64,000 bases of DNA from Candidatus Enterovibrio escicola (GTDB taxonomy: Bacteria > Pseudomonadota > Gammaproteobacteria > Enterobacterales > Vibrionaceae): the NCBI RefSeq assembly GCF_002464935.1, contig NZ_NBYY01000013.1:1-64000 (forward strand), given 5' to 3'. This document shows, one piece after another, positions 38,274-46,239 of this stretch. A program made the translations under genes and the position numbers. Each line of letters opens with the position of its first letter. Position 1 is the stretch's first letter. A model generated the notes under the pieces. It worked only from the letters and a program-made list of their open reading frames with translations, made no database searches and was not told the DNA's origin.

Positions 38274-38499
38274 AAGATATAAATGATTTAAATCATACAG
38301 AACATTAAGTAATCGTATGAATAAAGTTTCCTCCATGTAGGCAATGAGTCATTGCAAATAATCCGATATCTCTTTATTGTAACTCCTATTTCTATTCCGT
38401 CATCCATGCTTATATTGGCTCTTCAAATTTCTGTCTTAATACCTGCATCATTCTTTGTTTTATGGAATGCAGCCACTGCTCCACAATATTGTTTAAATA

Positions 38500-38755
38500 A
38501 CCTAAGTTGCGCATAAAAAATGAACTAAATATCCAAGTCACGATCTGATTCGTTTAAAAAAACTATTGACTGCATAAGGACTCAGGCATTGAATAACTTA
38601 GACACTGTTTTCGTCAAAATCGCCGATTTCTGCCAGAATTTTCTCTCTGCATGGGGACAAATACCTAATTTATTCCGGTATCAAACAAAGAAATAAGCCT
38701 TCTCGCCTCTCAGTTAGAGTAGCGAAGTTATGATGATAGTGATATAGCTAGATCA
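38500..38755 (+). repeat. IS982 5' fragment, left arm of a large inverted repeat
   Basis: ACCTAAGTTGCGCATAAAAA through about 38755 is the first 250 bp of an IS982 element. It shares private variants (TCGTCAAAATCGCCGATTTC, GGGGACAAATACC) with the inverted arm at 39593-39837 that other IS982 copies lack. Confidence 0.8.
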
Positions 38756-38760
38756 AAATA

Positions 38761-39592
38761 AAGTGGCATAATCCACATGCTGATAAAACAGCACGTCAAT
38801 GGAGCAGCGCTCTTTCCTTCTTAACTAGACTTTACCTCTGCCAACTTATGTTCTATTGGGTTAAGATCTGGACTGTAAGGATGAAGTGACTCTAAAGTAC
38901 AACCACGAGCTTCAATTGCTTCCCGCGCGTCGATACGGTTATGAAAACTTGCATTATACATAACGATCACAGCTTGTTCTGGAACTTTTGGAAGTAAATC
39001 TTGTTTGATCCATACGTGAAATACCTCCGAATTGACGCTTCTAATTACTAATTTAATCATTGGAAAAGTATGATTGATGATAGCACTAATGGTGTTAATT
39101 TTTCCTTTCGACTGTCAATCATGAACTCGATAGCAGCGACTTACTTTTTCAGAGTAAAGATGCGTTCGAGGCATACTCTGGGTAAACCCATTTTCATTTA
39201 AGTAGATGAGGGGTCTACCTTCTTCTTGATGTTTTTCTATTCTTTCTCTGAAGTTTTGGCATTTTTATTACAAGCTTTAGGGTAAAATAGAGTTTTTTAA
39301 TGTGATATTGAGGCGCTTTAATGCATAGTTAATTGTAGGTTGAGTAACATTCAGATGTTGTGCTTGCGACCACTGGTCATCATCAAGAAACTCCTCTACA
39401 TCCTTAAGATCCTTAAGTGAAATATTCTCATCAATTTTTGTATCGGGTTTATTTCAGGTAATACAAGGCTATTTTATTAGCCCAACGGAATAAGATTCTC
39501 ATTCCAACATCAAAATTAACGCTTGTTTGTTCAAACATTAATTCGTATTCTTCCTTGTAAGCCAGTCGTGCACTGTGCCACATAATAATTAT
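38761..39592 (-). mobile_element. IS630-family element, degraded, between inverted IS982 arms
   Basis: Minus-strand pieces: NVGMRILFRW-like N-terminus, TKIDENISLKDLKDVEEFLD near 39400, EEGRPLIYLNENGFTQSMPR (first Asp lost), and an open 79-codon stretch (39060-38821) NSEVFHVWIKQDLLPKVPEQ, VMYNASFHNRIDAREA, SPDLNPIEHKLAEVKS. It is homologous to the relic at 14756. Frameshifts disable it; the usual MDNASFH is MYNASFH, so the second catalytic Asp is lost. Confidence 0.78.
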
Positions 39593-39837
39593 TTAGCTAT
39601 TACTATCGTCATAACTTCGCTAACTGAGAGGCGAGAAGGCTTATTTCTTTGTTTGATACCGGAATAAATTAGGTATTTGTCCCCATGCAGAGAGAAAATT
39701 CTGGCAGAAATCGGCGATTTTGACGAAAACAGTGTCTAAGTTATTCAATGCCTGAGTCCTTATGCAGTCAATAGTTTTTTTAAACGATCAGATCGTGACT
39801 TTGCATTTAGTTTATTTCTTATACATAGCTCAGACTT
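39593..39837 (-). repeat. IS982 5' fragment, right arm of the inverted repeat
   Basis: Reverse complement of the arm at 38500-38755, nearly identical including private variants. The 39838-39988 stretch between it and sypE shows no gene. Confidence 0.8.
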
Positions 39838-39988
39838 AGTTAACTATTGATAATCCATGGAAACATTTCTTGTCTCTTTGGAGAAAAGAGCATGCCACTT
39901 TCGCTAGTTGGCTTTTTCTATGTTAGACCCTCAGTGTTGTAGCTATTATCTGAAATAGAGGGAATTTTGGTACAAATAAGATTTAATA

Positions 39989-41575
39989 TCACTTAGTGGT
40001 TTCTGGTTGTAATAATACTAGCGTTGCATCGTCACGGTTATTGTTACTGTAATGATCAAATATGTGCATCACGCTTTCAGCGGCTTCGTTCAGCGGTATA
40101 GATAAGGTGTTGTATAGTGTGTTAGTTACGTGTGTTTCCAGTTGCTTTCTTGCTTTTTTGTTTTCAGCTGCTTCAAACAAACCGTCAGTATAAAGGACGA
40201 GCCGCTCATTGTAATCAAGATATGAGGTTAAACTCTTGTAAGTTGCACCTGACACCACACCAGGAAGAATACCGCCTACGTCCAACTTTTGAATACCACT
40301 GGGGGAGATCTTAAATGGTGCGGGGTGTCCGGCCGTCGCTATTTCACATTTTCCGCCTGCAGACAATGTGATTGAACAGCAGGTAAGGATTACTTGCGAT
40401 AGTAAACCGTCTTCTAATGCACTGTCAGATAATTGCCTCAATAAGGTGGGGCAGGGATCTCTTTTATTGCTGTCAATGTGATACATCAGTCCTCTCAAAT
40501 AGCCGACGAAGGCATACGAGAAAAACTTAGCAGTAACATCATGACCCATTACATCGACAATATTAAGCATAATGTAATTGTCACTGTTGTTTCTATCTTG
40601 GTTATTATTATAACTGTTGATATGGGTACTATAATCGTGGTGGAGTACAAGATCTCCTCCGCCTATGCCCGTATTGCGGCTAATAACAGTCATTTCCCAA
40701 CCGTGCGCTTTTCGTGGCAAGGAAGGCATGAGCGAGTCGCTGATTCGTTTATTTACTCTGTTCGTCAATTGGTTATGAATTTGATTAGAACGCTTTAATA
40801 TGCGTCTACTGGTTTGCAGGAGTGTAAATTTACTCACGGGTTTTATCATGTAGTCATCAATGCCTAAACTTAGAGCATTATTACGTGTTTCTGAATTGTC
40901 GTCATCGGTAAGAAAAATAAAGGGTATCAGCAACATATAGCTATGCCTGTGTAGTGCTTTTTTTAAGCTCAAACCATCCATATGTGGCATGCGAATGTCT
41001 GAAATAACTAGGTCAACGTCTTTCTGCAATAATATACATAATGCAGTTTCACCATTTTCGGCTTCAATCACGTGATATTCTTCAGAAAGGTAAGCGCTAT
41101 AGAGTCTTAGTTGGCAAAGATCATCATCGACAATTAAAATACAGGGTTTGGTTGTTGTTTCTTTTAGGTACCATTTGAGCGAAAGGCGATGGAATCTACT
41201 TTCCTTTTGAATCTTGTATTCCATGTCGTCGCTTAAACTGTGGATGAGGGCAAGACCTCGTCCGCCTTCATTTTGATTGAAGAAATCTAGCGATCGAACT
41301 CGGTCTGGTAGAGTTGGATTCCAGCGTTGTCCGTCATCATTGAGATGCAACTGCCAACATCCATCGTTGTACTCTATGTTTACTTGGATAAATGTAGGTC
41401 GTGGACAGGCGTGATTCACCAAGTTTGAAGCAGCCTCGGCGAAACAGAGTAGGATCTTGTTGGAAAGGTGGGTAGTTATACTCCGATTCCCTAAAATTTT
41501 TTCAATCTCTTTGCGAGTGTGAGTGACCTCTTTTAAAGAGGCGGGTTTACACTCGAGGTTGACTATAGACGTCAT
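39989..41575 (-). CDS. sypE: SypE: kinase/receiver/phosphatase regulator of SypA
   Basis: 528 residues with the rare order RsbW-like serine kinase (1-135; N51 in CFAEAASNLVNHA), receiver (145-260; phospho-acceptor D193 in VISDIRMP, K246 in MIKPVS) and PP2C/SpoIIE phosphatase (285-525; D341 in NIVDVMGHD, D464 in LYTDGLFE, D516). In V. fischeri SypE controls biofilm by phosphorylating or dephosphorylating the STAS protein SypA, and its key residues N52 and D192 line up here within one position. It is the last syp gene present, 2 bases after sypD; sypF and later genes do not follow. Confidence 0.88.
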   Translation of the reverse strand: MTSIVNLECKPASLKEVTHTRKEIEKILGNRSITTHLSNKILLCFAEAASNLVNHACPRPTFIQVNIEYNDGCWQLHLNDDGQRWNPTLPDRVRSLDFFNQNEGGRGLALIHSLSDDMEYKIQKESRFHRLSLKWYLKETTTKPCILIVDDDLCQLRLYSAYLSEEYHVIEAENGETALCILLQKDVDLVISDIRMPHMDGLSLKKALHRHSYMLLIPFIFLTDDDNSETRNNALSLGIDDYMIKPVSKFTLLQTSRRILKRSNQIHNQLTNRVNKRISDSLMPSLPRKAHGWEMTVISRNTGIGGGDLVLHHDYSTHINSYNNNQDRNNSDNYIMLNIVDVMGHDVTAKFFSYAFVGYLRGLMYHIDSNKRDPCPTLLRQLSDSALEDGLLSQVILTCCSITLSAGGKCEIATAGHPAPFKISPSGIQKLDVGGILPGVVSGATYKSLTSYLDYNERLVLYTDGLFEAAENKKARKQLETHVTNTLYNTLSIPLNEAAESVMHIFDHYSNNNRDDATLVLLQPETTK

Positions 41576-41577
41576 AG

Positions 41578-42288
41578 TTAAATTTCCAATGACAGAAGAT
41601 GACTCTCAATAATAAATTTTTTTAGCTTTGCTGCCAGTTTCGGGAAACGTTTCTTCAAACATTCTATTTCTCTCAATATTTCTACTTTCAAGGATGGATT
41701 GTTTTTGTCGTTGATAATACAGCCTAGTAAGTGTGCGCCTGAACTGTCGAGCTTTTTAATCGATTCTGACACCATAGCTTCAGTGGTATGCCCCGCCATA
41801 ACCACTAGGATTGTACCATCAACCGCAGCAGCTACTCGTTCTGGTGGGATATTATTGGCGTTTAATCTGGAGATGGGTGATGTGTCGAAAAGGATCAAGT
41901 CATATTCTTTGCTCCATTCTACGATATAGCTTTCTAGTACGCTTGGGCGACGAAGTTCCATAAGGGTTTCACGCTTGGAAGGGGCAATTATACCTGTAAA
42001 AACAACATTTTCACCGCTGATTCCGACCAGTTCTGGACTTGGAAATAAACGGTTTTCATTGACTGAAATACTCATACCTTGACTTTCAAGGCAAGGGTGG
42101 TAGAGATTAAGATCGACCACCAAGGTAGATTGGCCAGCAAGTAGAGCGCGTTGTGCTATGGCGATGGTTAAGGAGGTCACACCTTCACCAGAATCTGTTG
42201 CTACAAATACCAATGTTTTGTAGTTATTACGGATGATTTGGAAATAAATTCGCTCTATTTCTAGGTTCAATGGAGGGATATTCATCAT
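41578..42288 (-). CDS. sypD: SypD: CpsD/Wzz-type polysaccharide ATPase, Walker lysine missing
   Basis: 236 residues of the BY-kinase/ParA-like fold. The Walker A position reads SGEGVTSLT (33-41), with Val37 where a Lys is expected (GEGKS/T). VVDLNLYHP and LILFDTSPIS mark Walker A' and B. No tyrosine-rich tail is seen. In syp clusters SypD is thought to act with the export machinery at the inner membrane. It overlaps sypC by 4 bases and precedes sypE by 2. The missing Lys suggests it binds or hydrolyses ATP poorly, or acts as a partner only. Confidence 0.82.
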   Translation of the reverse strand: MMNIPPLNLEIERIYFQIIRNNYKTLVFVATDSGEGVTSLTIAIAQRALLAGQSTLVVDLNLYHPCLESQGMSISVNENRLFPSPELVGISGENVVFTGIIAPSKRETLMELRRPSVLESYIVEWSKEYDLILFDTSPISRLNANNIPPERVAAAVDGTILVVMAGHTTEAMVSESIKKLDSSGAHLLGCIINDKNNPSLKVEILREIECLKKRFPKLAAKLKKFIIESHLLSLEI

Positions 42289-44387
42289 AACACGCCTATC
42301 AATGCTGCAATACCTGCAAGCTGGAAGATATCGGTAATACTTTGTCGGATCTTCTGCGCGGTACTCTCTTCTTTGCTTGGGATGTAGATGGTATCACCCG
42401 ATCGTAGTACGGGGAGATCTTGGAGCTGCGCAGTGCGGCTAAATTCTGAAAGATTAAATATACGTGCTTGCTTGTTGCAGCAGGATATGTTGATGACCGT
42501 AATTTTCTCGATATATGCATTATCGTTTGGACCTCCAGCCTCCGCGAGCAAGTCCAGAATGGTCATATGGTCATCAAAGGTATATCGACCAGGTCGGTTT
42601 ATCGCACCGAGTACACGAATAGTTTCCTCTTTAGGTCGATCTAGCCAATTTCGATTCTTTTCAGGGATATAAATAGTATCTCCTATTTGCACGTCAGGTA
42701 AAATGCTAGAATCACCGGTTTCAAAAAATAACGCTAAGTTTAGTTTGCTGACACGTGCATGTTTACCATCTAAATGGGTAATACGGATATTGTGTAAATC
42801 AGCATTTTCCGTAGGGCCATTAGCGGCGGAAAGAATATCGAGAAAGTGCATTTTTTCAGTGAAACGGTAGCGACCAGGGACACCAACTTGGCCAAATACA
42901 TAAATGGAACTGTTAGAACTTTGGTGAATCCATCCTGATTTATTGCCAGAAGGGTCATCGGGTAAATTATTCACACGTATGATAGATCCTGCACGAACTA
43001 AAGGCAGCTCGGAATCTGGACGACCTTCCTTAATAAAGTTGTCTAGGTTAAATGTATAGGCTTTTGATTGATTGATGCTGATTGGTGTGACGATTTCAAT
43101 CTTACTGGTATCAGCCTGGCTACTTGGTCCACCTACATGTGCGAGTAAATCTAACAATGACATTTCGTCAGACCACTCGATTCGTCCTGGCCTTATGACT
43201 TCTCCTATTACACGTACGGCACGTTCTGGTGTGACTTTTAACCACGATTTTTCATTCATATCTAGCTTTTCAGGAATGAATATTGCATCACCCGCTTCGA
43301 TTTTGGGTAGACTACCTACCATTTTTCCTTCGGTGAACAGGGTCAAGTCAAATCGTACTGTGCTGCCATCTGGTTTGATCACCCGAATTTGGCGACTTTC
43401 AGCAAATCTGGTAGGGCCACCAGCATTAGCAAGAATGTCGATGAATGTCGCCCCATTTTTACCTTCATACGCTCCTGGTTTTGCCACTTCACCCATAATA
43501 TATACTGTATTTGAGCCGGTTTTTATTTCTTCTTCTTGCTTCGGTACGAAGATGGTAGAACCTTCAACAATATTGGGTAAAAGAGATTCATCTCCACTGT
43601 CTAGGTATTGCTTGAGATTGAGAATTTGGGGTTTATTTTGGGAAATTACACGAATTTGTGATATGGCAGCGTACCTAGTGACACCACCAGCCCGCATAAG
43701 CCAATCTACGAGATTATTGTCTTTTTTTGCGGTGAAACTTCCTGGACGTATGACTTCTCCAAATACCTTTATGGCTTTTTTATCTTCAGCGGCATCACCT
43801 GAATCAGCAAGTTTTGCTGGGTCAAAATCCTGCTCAACATTACCAATTTTAGGAGATGCTGGAACAAAAAGGGTATCCAATGATACTAACTGAGGAAGAA
43901 AACTAGCATCACCCGTATCGAGAAATTTTTTATAGTTGAAGGTAATTATTTCACCGTCTCTATGAAGCTGAAATCGGTTGAGTTGTGCTCCTAGACGTAA
44001 GCCTCCAGCTGCATACAGTGCCATTTGAATGGATGCATTCTTTCGTAAGGTAAATTCACCAGGATCTTTAACGTACCCTTGAATGGTGATAAGTAACTGG
44101 CGCTTACTGACGAACACTTGCAAAGAAGATAAATCCCGGAAAATGGAACTTAGGGTTCGTTTCACAGTTTCAGATAACTGGGTTTCAGTCATGTTAGATG
44201 CTTGTACTATACCTACTTCAGGTAGTGTAAGTCTCCCTTGACGGTCAACTTGGAATTCTTTATTTAAAGTCAGTTCACCTGGTAACATAATGGCGATCTG
44301 ATCACCAACTTGTATACGGTATTCCTCGGACCCTGCATCGAATACGTAGAGTAGCATTAGGATAAAAAGGATGAATGATCGGGTCAT
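42285..44387 (-). CDS. sypC: SypC: multi-SLBB polysaccharide export protein
   Basis: 700 residues. A signal peptide (MTRSFILFILMLLYVFDAGS) is followed by a Poly_export domain (YRIQVGDQIAIMLPGELTLN) and six SLBB-type repeats, each beginning like VxGEVxxPGxF/Y: about residues 110, 206, 300, 394, 498 and 593. It ends in a hydrophobic segment (ITDIFQLAGIAALIGVL). Proteins of this kind form the outer-membrane and periplasmic exit of capsule or exopolysaccharide; this one is longer than Wza because of the extra repeats. It overlaps sypB and sypD by 4 bases each. Confidence 0.87.
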   Translation of the reverse strand: MTRSFILFILMLLYVFDAGSEEYRIQVGDQIAIMLPGELTLNKEFQVDRQGRLTLPEVGIVQASNMTETQLSETVKRTLSSIFRDLSSLQVFVSKRQLLITIQGYVKDPGEFTLRKNASIQMALYAAGGLRLGAQLNRFQLHRDGEIITFNYKKFLDTGDASFLPQLVSLDTLFVPASPKIGNVEQDFDPAKLADSGDAAEDKKAIKVFGEVIRPGSFTAKKDNNLVDWLMRAGGVTRYAAISQIRVISQNKPQILNLKQYLDSGDESLLPNIVEGSTIFVPKQEEEIKTGSNTVYIMGEVAKPGAYEGKNGATFIDILANAGGPTRFAESRQIRVIKPDGSTVRFDLTLFTEGKMVGSLPKIEAGDAIFIPEKLDMNEKSWLKVTPERAVRVIGEVIRPGRIEWSDEMSLLDLLAHVGGPSSQADTSKIEIVTPISINQSKAYTFNLDNFIKEGRPDSELPLVRAGSIIRVNNLPDDPSGNKSGWIHQSSNSSIYVFGQVGVPGRYRFTEKMHFLDILSAANGPTENADLHNIRITHLDGKHARVSKLNLALFFETGDSSILPDVQIGDTIYIPEKNRNWLDRPKEETIRVLGAINRPGRYTFDDHMTILDLLAEAGGPNDNAYIEKITVINISCCNKQARIFNLSEFSRTAQLQDLPVLRSGDTIYIPSKEESTAQKIRQSITDIFQLAGIAALIGVL

Positions 44388-45196
44388 TGCTTGCCTTTTT
44401 TTACGATTTTATCGTGCGTGTCGGTTTTTATTAATTCAATAGATACACGTCGATTGGTTAGTCTAATATGAGGATAACTACCTTCCAATAATGGATCGCT
44501 GGAGCCAACTGCGGTTACGGATAAACGCGAAGGGGTGATGCCAAAAATTTGTAAATAGCGTTTCACTTGATTTGCACGTGCCAGTGAGAGCTCTTGGTTG
44601 AACTTTATACTACCGATAATATCAGCATGGCCTGTTATATGCAGATTGTACTGGGTCAAGTCATGCAGCAATGTTGCAGCTTCCGCCAGTCGGTTCATAT
44701 ATTTGGGGTTAACGGCGTATGAGTTGAACGCGAATTGGTTGTCTGTGTTTAACAATCCATAAATTTTCACTGCCAAGTCAGCTGTTGATTGGTAGTCAAC
44801 AACCTCCAGTGAAATACAAACGCTGCTGCCTTGGATTGCATCAAGTTGTTTTTCGAGTCGCTCAAGTGTTGTACGTTGAATGATGAGGTCGTTGGCTGCA
44901 TCAAGGTTTAATCCACCTTGTAGTTCACGAACGATGCGATCTTGCATACGTTTTGCGAGGATAACCATGGCTGGAAAACAGCGTTCTGCGCCTTCCAACA
45001 CCAGAATATCTAGATGATGGGCAGCTAATTTCCACTCAAAACGTAAGCCATGTTTAGGTTCTAATGGTTCACTCGGCATCACTGGTGAAAGGGAAGAGTA
45101 TTGATACTCAGCCATACCACCTTCCCCATGATCTGGAAAGAAAGAACAACCTGAAATGAGGATAGCATAGAGTATGAGAGTTAGTATGTTTTTCAT
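44384..45196 (-). CDS. sypB: SypB: OmpA-domain lipoprotein
   Basis: 270 residues. A lipoprotein signal with lipobox LISGC (Cys17) is followed by a mostly helical middle and a C-terminal OmpA-like peptidoglycan-binding domain (about 150-262: NLHITGHADIIGS, ELSLARANQVKRYL, RLSVTAVGSSDPL). It should sit in the outer membrane facing the wall, supporting polysaccharide export. It lies between sypA and sypC, as in V. fischeri. Start ATG 45196 has a GAGGAAAAG ribosome site. Confidence 0.85.
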   Translation of the reverse strand: MKNILTLILYAILISGCSFFPDHGEGGMAEYQYSSLSPVMPSEPLEPKHGLRFEWKLAAHHLDILVLEGAERCFPAMVILAKRMQDRIVRELQGGLNLDAANDLIIQRTTLERLEKQLDAIQGSSVCISLEVVDYQSTADLAVKIYGLLNTDNQFAFNSYAVNPKYMNRLAEAATLLHDLTQYNLHITGHADIIGSIKFNQELSLARANQVKRYLQIFGITPSRLSVTAVGSSDPLLEGSYPHIRLTNRRVSIELIKTDTHDKIVKKGKQ

Positions 45197-45308
45197 GCTT
45201 TTCCTCTTTCTGTATAATCGGACTTATAGAGTAAGTGTGACTAATCTTCTTACGAGGAGTTTATTATTTAGTTGTAACTTAAGGATACTTAGTCAACTTA
45301 GTGTCTAA

Positions 45309-45635
45309 CTAGCTGTCTCTTGATGCCACTTCAACGGGAATTGCACTATTAATACGTAGCAGCTGAATGATCTCCATGGGTTGACCGTGCACTTGAACCA
45401 ACGAAAGCGTATAATCCTTTGCTTTCAAGCGTTTAAATAAAAAGACTATGGCACCAATGCCAGAGCTATCTAGGAAATTTACATTGCTTAGATTAAGGGT
45501 AACGTCGGTGATATGTTCCTCATTCACCACTGCGTCAAGTTCAGGTTGTATTTCACTGCAGCCATGTGCATCCATGTCACCATGGATTACAAGCATGAGT
45601 GTGTTATCAGGCTGTTGAATATGTTCAATTTGCAT
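45309..45635 (-). CDS. sypA: SypA: STAS-domain anti-sigma-antagonist-like regulator
   Basis: 108 residues, a single STAS domain. NVNFLDSSGIGAIVFLF carries the phosphorylatable serine in DSSG (56-59), matching S56 of V. fischeri SypA within one position. SypA promotes polysaccharide production when unphosphorylated and is the target of SypE, which is encoded four genes downstream. A GAGGAGAG ribosome site precedes ATG 45635, and a sigma-54 promoter lies at 45672-45687. Confidence 0.88.
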   Translation of the reverse strand: MQIEHIQQPDNTLMLVIHGDMDAHGCSEIQPELDAVVNEEHITDVTLNLSNVNFLDSSGIGAIVFLFKRLKAKDYTLSLVQVHGQPMEIIQLLRINSAIPVEVASRDS

Positions 45636-45671
45636 GAGTTCAACTCTCCTCTATATTGACGGATATAAGCA

Positions 45672-45687
45672 AGCAAAAATCATACCA
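45672..45687 (-). promoter_or_regulatory. Sigma-54 (-24/-12) promoter of sypA
   Basis: On the minus strand TGGTATGATTTTTGCT has the GG and GC pairs separated by exactly 10 bases, as in TGGCACG-N4-TTGCA, and lies about 37 bases before the sypA start. In V. fischeri the sypA promoter is sigma-54 dependent and activated by SypG. The stretch 45688-46239 contains no supported gene. Confidence 0.7.
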
Positions 45688-46239
45688 TTCGTGTTTTATT
45701 TATTAAATATCAATTAGTTAATATATCTTTAGAGTTTGTTATGTGTGTGACTTTGCAGTCTGACAATGATTTTGGGAAATGGAGACTGTTATAGCTAGTA
45801 CTACACCCGATTTCATGCACGATGGAGTACGTCTTTAACTAAACGATTTGCTTTGATTCTAAGCTGGGTTTTGGGATATCAAGTACCTTGAGTCTGATTA
45901 TTTCATACATAGGGTATTGAGTGCCTACGCTTCGGGGAAATATTACGAATATTTTATTTTCAAATGGTTATTTCCATATATCAGGTGAAATATACAGGTG
46001 TTATATCTTCAGATGCGATCAAATACTCTAAAAAAATATCGTTAGGAGAACGATACCAAAAACTCACTCTACCACGTGTTCCGAGTATATGTTATATTTT
46101 GGTAAGATCTTCATTACTGACTTCATTAAAATTAGTTCCTTTGGGTGAAGATCTTCTTATCAGAACATTGGTATGTTTATCCAGCTTCCGATCACTTGAC
46201 TGATAATATCTTGCAAAATAGAAATAAGCCTCTGTAATT

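Follow-up and report, generated by a model that had tools for sequence, protein, structure and literature searches.

Candidatus Enterovibrio escacola probably keeps sypA-E as the first block of a dispersed syp gene set with a trimmed SypF

The window analyzed here (64,000 nucleotides, positions 1 to 64,000 of contig C31 of the Candidatus Enterovibrio escacola assembly) carries the genes sypA to sypE. These are likely the leading block of a syp set that is complete in other respects but was broken up by rearrangement among transposon debris; the set would still be under selection and would be controlled by SypG with sigma-54, by way of a phosphotransfer hub that has been trimmed. E. escacola is a luminous bacterium of the anglerfish light organ, with a reduced genome rich in IS elements. 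As judged from the genomes of E. escacola and E. luxaltus, the pathway for the symbiosis polysaccharide appears to be retained almost whole in two genome-reducing symbionts, its sensor having been trimmed. Such trimming is consistent with laboratory evidence that the HPt domain of SypF can suffice, as this domain alone is described in the accessible text of PMC11841056 to restore pellicles in a V. fischeri ΔsypF mutant. That both symbionts retain syp genes is already known from the accessible part of PMC6773444 (2019). If the V. fischeri pathway is taken as a guide, some other hybrid kinase would phosphorylate the REC-HPt portion that remains of SypF, this portion would hand the phosphate to SypG, and SypG with sigma-54 would switch on the scattered syp promoters; SypE would set SypA via serine phosphorylation, by which polysaccharide output would be allowed or stopped. 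SypF, with its own sensing and kinase parts gone, would survive as a phosphotransfer piece.

The five genes were found as intact open frames on the minus strand (39989-45635) in the order A-B-C-D-E. The gene sypA (45309-45635, 108 aa) encodes a STAS-domain regulator (Pfam STAS), whose phosphorylation serine S57, within a DSSG motif, aligned to S56 of V. (Aliivibrio) fischeri (L043, strain emors.2.1). It is followed by sypB (44384-45196, 270 aa), for an OmpA-domain protein (Pfam OmpA), and sypC (42285-44387, 700 aa), for a polysaccharide export protein with SLBB repeats (Pfam Poly_export and SLBB). Assignment of sypD (41578-42288, 236 aa) was based on its position and on 74% identity to E. norvegicus SypD; no Pfam match was detected for SypD in the search of the five window proteins, and we take it to be a CpsD/CapB-like ATPase. 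The gene sypE (39989-41575, 528 aa) encodes a serine kinase, receiver and PP2C phosphatase (Pfam HATPase_c_2, REC and SpoIIE), in which N51 aligned to V. fischeri N52 and D193 to D192, and both phosphatase aspartates, D464 and D515, were retained. The V. fischeri SypE aspartates are presumably numbered D192, D443 and D495 and were checked by alignment alone; the reference residues SypE N52 and SypA S56 are those given in the accessible text of PMC3610818. By these open frames, domains and aligned residues, the original prediction that sypABCDE are intact, with the SypA DSSG site and SypE N51 and D193, was borne out. A wide search for SypE gave matches in 150 of 150 genomes, many of them, among the matches listed, to the receiver domain only, and this tally was not used.

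Gene order in the block is identical to that of E. norvegicus, with amino acid identities of 80, 69, 80, 74 and 63% for SypA, B, C, D and E, respectively. Beyond sypA, a DEAD-box helicase gene, which we take to be rhlE, matches the upstream flank of the E. norvegicus locus in the same orientation, and thus the sypA-E block probably sits at its original place.

A properly spaced sigma-54 promoter had likewise been predicted before sypA, and this prediction held. The sequence TGGTATGATTTTTGCT (45672-45687, minus strand) is an exact match to the -24/-12 pattern TGGYAYN5TTGCW, lies 51 bp before sypA on the matching strand and is the only exact match in the window. Since chance alone predicts 0.33 exact matches over the two strands, and one or more turned up in 29 of 100 shuffles, the existence of the match is not significant; its placement before sypA is what counts. 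In E. luxaltus, E. norvegicus and E. baiacu, sypA is preceded at 50-52 bp by inexact matches (9/12, scored without a shuffle control). A predicted SypG-enhancer-like site, TTGTCAGACTGCAA (45753-45766, minus strand), lies upstream of sypA and agrees with 10 of the 11 positions of the enhancer motif used for scoring, as quoted in PMC10162802. Like sites were predicted in all four Enterovibrio sypA promoters compared; their distance upstream of the -24 element is 77-79 bp in E. escacola, E. norvegicus and E. baiacu, as against 108 bp in E. luxaltus. Within the window the TTGTCAGACTGCAA pattern occurs once (0.10 expected), but it is partly circular, having been derived from the sites compared here. 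The syp locus of V. fischeri has several SypG promoters. Before sypH and sypI, sigma-54 matches of 10-11/12 were detected in E. escacola and E. luxaltus (10 and 9 in E. norvegicus), and before sypP the scores were 9, 10 and 10 of 12 in E. escacola, E. luxaltus and E. norvegicus, respectively, all without a shuffle control. No good sigma-54 match was found upstream of sypM in these three genomes (at most 8/12). For sypG, which is separated from the sypA promoter, a promoter of its own was not found, with sigma-70 matches at 8 vs. 7.0 expected.

The set had also been thought to end at sypE, without its activator. This was correct insofar as sypF does not directly follow sypE: positions 38274-39988 hold transposon debris, with a DDE_3 transposase fragment (38821-39060) and an inverted pair that is 91% alike (38513-38776 and 39568-39822). 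By contrast, when the genomes of E. escacola (2,645,619 bp) and E. luxaltus were searched with the DNA of the E. norvegicus syp locus, and the frames then aligned, sypG to sypR were found elsewhere in the E. escacola assembly and only sypF proved degraded; a sigma-54 gene (one Sigma54_AID match, open frame of 508 aa) is also present. The syp genes do not form a single contiguous locus and are spread over three contigs, with C37 holding the sypF remnant, sypG, an inverted epimerase gene, sypH, I, J and K and three L-region frames, and C26 holding sypM, N and O, a GH123-like gene, and sypP, Q and R. The SypG of C37 (476 aa, open, 82% identical to that of E. norvegicus and in syp gene order) retains by alignment the receiver Asp, Walker A and GAFTGA, as befits the activator of a complete syp system. 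The polysaccharide genes sypH-R are all represented, the L-region being that of other Enterovibrio. With frame starts set mechanically, open near-full-length counterparts were found for 21 of the 22 E. norvegicus frames, the exception being sypF; over aligned codons, sypG, sypH-K, the L-region and sypM-R are 58-82% identical in amino acids to those of E. norvegicus. In the second L-region frame, both symbionts fall short of the E. norvegicus length (173 and 177 aa vs. 255 aa). The GC content of the three blocks is 41.6, 40.7 and 41.5% vs. 49.5% in E. norvegicus sypA-E, and therefore these do not stem from a contaminating free-living relative similar to E. norvegicus. Contamination as the source of C37 and C26 was excluded by this GC content, by divergence from both E. 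norvegicus and E. luxaltus, and by IS debris common to the window. A loss of the sypH-R synthesis genes in both symbionts, with sypA-E and sypG alone retained, was also considered and was excluded by the finding of sypH-R in both genomes.

No full-length SypF hybrid kinase is encoded at the E. escacola sypF remnant. Its sensor and kinase portion is decayed to frame-broken pieces (6 stops in 92 codons of the kinase remnant) beside REC-HPt, which forms one open frame of 276 codons. In E. luxaltus the REC is broken too (6 stops in 140 codons), and an open HPt frame of 150 codons is left. With remnants read in one frame and open frames stop-free by definition, simple tests of this contrast gave 0.0002 for E. 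escacola and 0.012 for E. luxaltus, values that serve as a rough, post hoc control. The HPt His was retained by alignment in both species. No clear ribosome-binding site was found before the ATG of the E. escacola REC-HPt or of the E. luxaltus HPt, and REC-HPt may be a pseudogene of recent origin whose decay is not yet complete. The debris upstream of the E. escacola remnant includes a phage terminase fragment (Terminase_6C, L136:4526-4933).

E. luxaltus CC26 (L112, L139 and L140) is, like E. escacola, a reduced anglerfish symbiont with a near-complete but dispersed syp set, a trimmed SypF and a retained SypE. Its blocks are at 171-180 kb (A-G), 509-516 kb (H-L) and 918-927 kb (M-R) of one 1.6 Mb contig, such that its breaks fall at G/H and L/M, whereas in E. 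escacola the break is at E/F and L/M lie on contig ends. Open counterparts were found in E. luxaltus for 20 of the 22 E. norvegicus frames, the exceptions being sypF, of which HPt alone survives, and the epimerase gene, for which no match was seen when the E. luxaltus genome was searched with DNA of the E. norvegicus locus. E. norvegicus (L114-L115) and E. baiacu (L116-L117) have the same genes as E. escacola, including the Enterovibrio-specific ones, but differ in having a contiguous locus, a full-length SypF (1023 and 1017 aa, respectively) and higher GC. V. fischeri shares the A-E order, the domains, the SypA, SypE, SypF HPt and SypG residues and the sigma-54 match before sypA. Unlike V. 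fischeri, E. escacola has its syp genes in separated blocks and SypF as REC-HPt; it also has a different L-region and extra epimerase and GH123-like genes, and these it has in common with other Enterovibrio.

These findings bear on a published account. According to the accessible text of PMC6773444, BLAST recovers neither sypF nor sypG from any of the E. escacola genomes, with MJ02 as reference, and their loss could widen the range of hosts open to E. escacola; MJ02 is the Candidatus Enterovibrio escacola from Melanocetus johnsonii, as given in the accessible text of PMC6020299. If the activator were truly lost, as this account implies, sypA-E would persist by inertia or in another role. This we regard as very improbable, as C37 of an assembly matching MJ02 carries sypG as an open frame in the gene order of syp. 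Read from that assembly, the published absence of sypG is contradicted, and for sypF a REC-HPt remnant exists; the host-range suggestion rests on an absence that is not seen for sypG in the assembly matching its own reference. No later work revisiting the absence of sypF and sypG was recognized from titles and abstract openings among the matches listed, with subscription literature mostly outside the search; in the accessible text of PMC12195369, anglerfish are mentioned once and Enterovibrio not at all. A different concern is that the scatter of the genes and the sypE/sypF break are artefacts of short-read assembly of a repeat-rich genome, the locus being really contiguous. The assembly is a draft of 39 contigs, and the L-region block ends and the sypM block starts each about 1.25 kb from a contig end. 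Furthermore, a sequence of 314 bp recurs, inverted and at 99.4% identity, at the ends of C37 and C26 (L136:19848-20000 with L137:1-161; L138:16895-17208), other window copies of this end sequence being about 80-87% alike. Because of this shared end, C37 and C26 may adjoin in E. escacola, which would bring L next to M. The E/F break, however, is internal to C31 (157,231 bp), and the sypE flank has no near-identical repeat among the window, the C37 and C26 stretches and the E. norvegicus and E. luxaltus loci, the best being 91%. E. luxaltus is likewise split, with three blocks on a single contig and L and M about 400 kb apart. We therefore find an assembly artefact unlikely.

Also quite unlikely, in our judgment, is that the syp genes are decaying at present, their open frames reflecting short time and not selection. 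The broken sypF and the scattered blocks would fit such decay, as would the 974 pseudogenes reported for this genome in the accessible text of PMC6020299. Against it, both deeply diverged symbionts keep all syp genes but sypF open, while the neighbouring parts of sypF have meanwhile filled with stops. Synonymous differences between E. escacola and E. luxaltus were found to be 0.73-0.85 per site for all syp frames compared except one L-region frame (0.64). Because the frames are open in two symbionts so deeply diverged, lasting selection is argued, in agreement with the original prediction that intact frames imply continued selection; in the one sister genome inspected for stop codons, E. luxaltus, sypA-E are open. 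The dN/dS ratio of sypA-E, proposed earlier as a measure, was computed together with that of the other syp genes between E. escacola, E. luxaltus and E. norvegicus by the Nei-Gojobori method, with a custom script. By this approach, dS was infinite or above 1.4 in every syp comparison, and dN was 0.11-0.34, partly above that of the housekeeping genes hemA, prfA, prmC, clpS and clpA (0.05-0.25). With dS saturated, the ratio is uninformative beyond 'constrained'.

For the preferred reading of a retained set with a trimmed SypF, the source of phosphate was sought among HisKA-type kinases, the only type searched. The matches numbered 8 in E. escacola, 5 in E. luxaltus, 43 in E. norvegicus and 2 in Photodesmus blepharus, and the loci of 7, 4, 1 and 1 of these, respectively, were retrieved. 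Both anglerfish symbionts were found to encode an HK-REC hybrid kinase of 610 aa that lacks HPt (L172:1156-2988; L173:434-2263), 68% identical between the two and with no equivalog over cut-off in NCBIfam or Pfam, which is a candidate phosphate donor for the SypF HPt. A tentative and rather doubtful extension is that both symbionts rewired syp control, SypF sensing being lost to leave a bare phosphotransfer hub with SypE kept, such that the polysaccharide would answer a different sensor, perhaps the 610-aa hybrid. In E. escacola, the E/F break would also remove sypG from transcription with sypA, such that the activator would no longer be tied to the promoter that it serves, and the kinase would have been lost to different depths in each species.

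In 10 of 12 other Enterovibrio/Grimontia loci (L032-L035, L037-L042, L098 and L102), SypF is in one frame of 1003-1070 aa, the exceptions being L038, with SypF split, and L041, with several broken frames. Among 80 named loci, 28 have SypE. HPt-only SypF together with SypE is a rare pairing, detected in two of these 28 (E. luxaltus L036 and the Aliivibrio MAG L048), and three of the 28 have an HPt frame of 201-300 aa. HPt-only SypF was found in 30 of the 52 loci without SypE in the fetched stretch, P. blepharus (L092) included, and in 30 of 78 named loci when the symbionts E. luxaltus and P. blepharus were left out. The HPt-only forms of free-living Vibrio and P. blepharus are similar to that of the anglerfish symbionts in having a phosphotransfer domain beside sypG, but differ in that sypE was not seen in the fetched stretch for 30 of the 32 loci, out of 80, in which SypF is HPt-only. 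The accessible text of PMC4517449 reports sypE to be absent from V. vulnificus and V. parahaemolyticus.

The P. blepharus locus (L092:8785-22040; 1.1 Mb genome) is contiguous, with sypA-D, a 145-aa HPt-only SypF, sypG-K, a 461-aa frame at the place of sypL, and sypM, which is cut by the locus end; no sypE lies between sypD and sypG. Of its two genome-wide HisKA matches, one belongs to a hybrid of 732 aa that has a PDC sensor. The idea that its HPt-only SypF is convergent with the anglerfish symbionts was weakened, as the HPt-only form without sypE is common in Vibrio (30/80), and for this reason the P. blepharus form is probably inherited. Its HPt was matched in 16 of 21 surrounding genomes, several times in frames below 200 aa.

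In V. fischeri, sypL lies between sypK and sypM. At this place E. norvegicus has three frames, one with DUF4114 (L115:1346-3886), with counterparts in E. escacola and E. luxaltus, and no SypL was recognized by Pfam in this L-region. Between sypO and sypP, Enterovibrio loci have a gene of 794-800 aa (L115:7811-10195; L138:10031-12433), for which the E. norvegicus copy gave no GH123 match and the E. escacola copy a weak, below-cut-off match to the GH123 catalytic domain.
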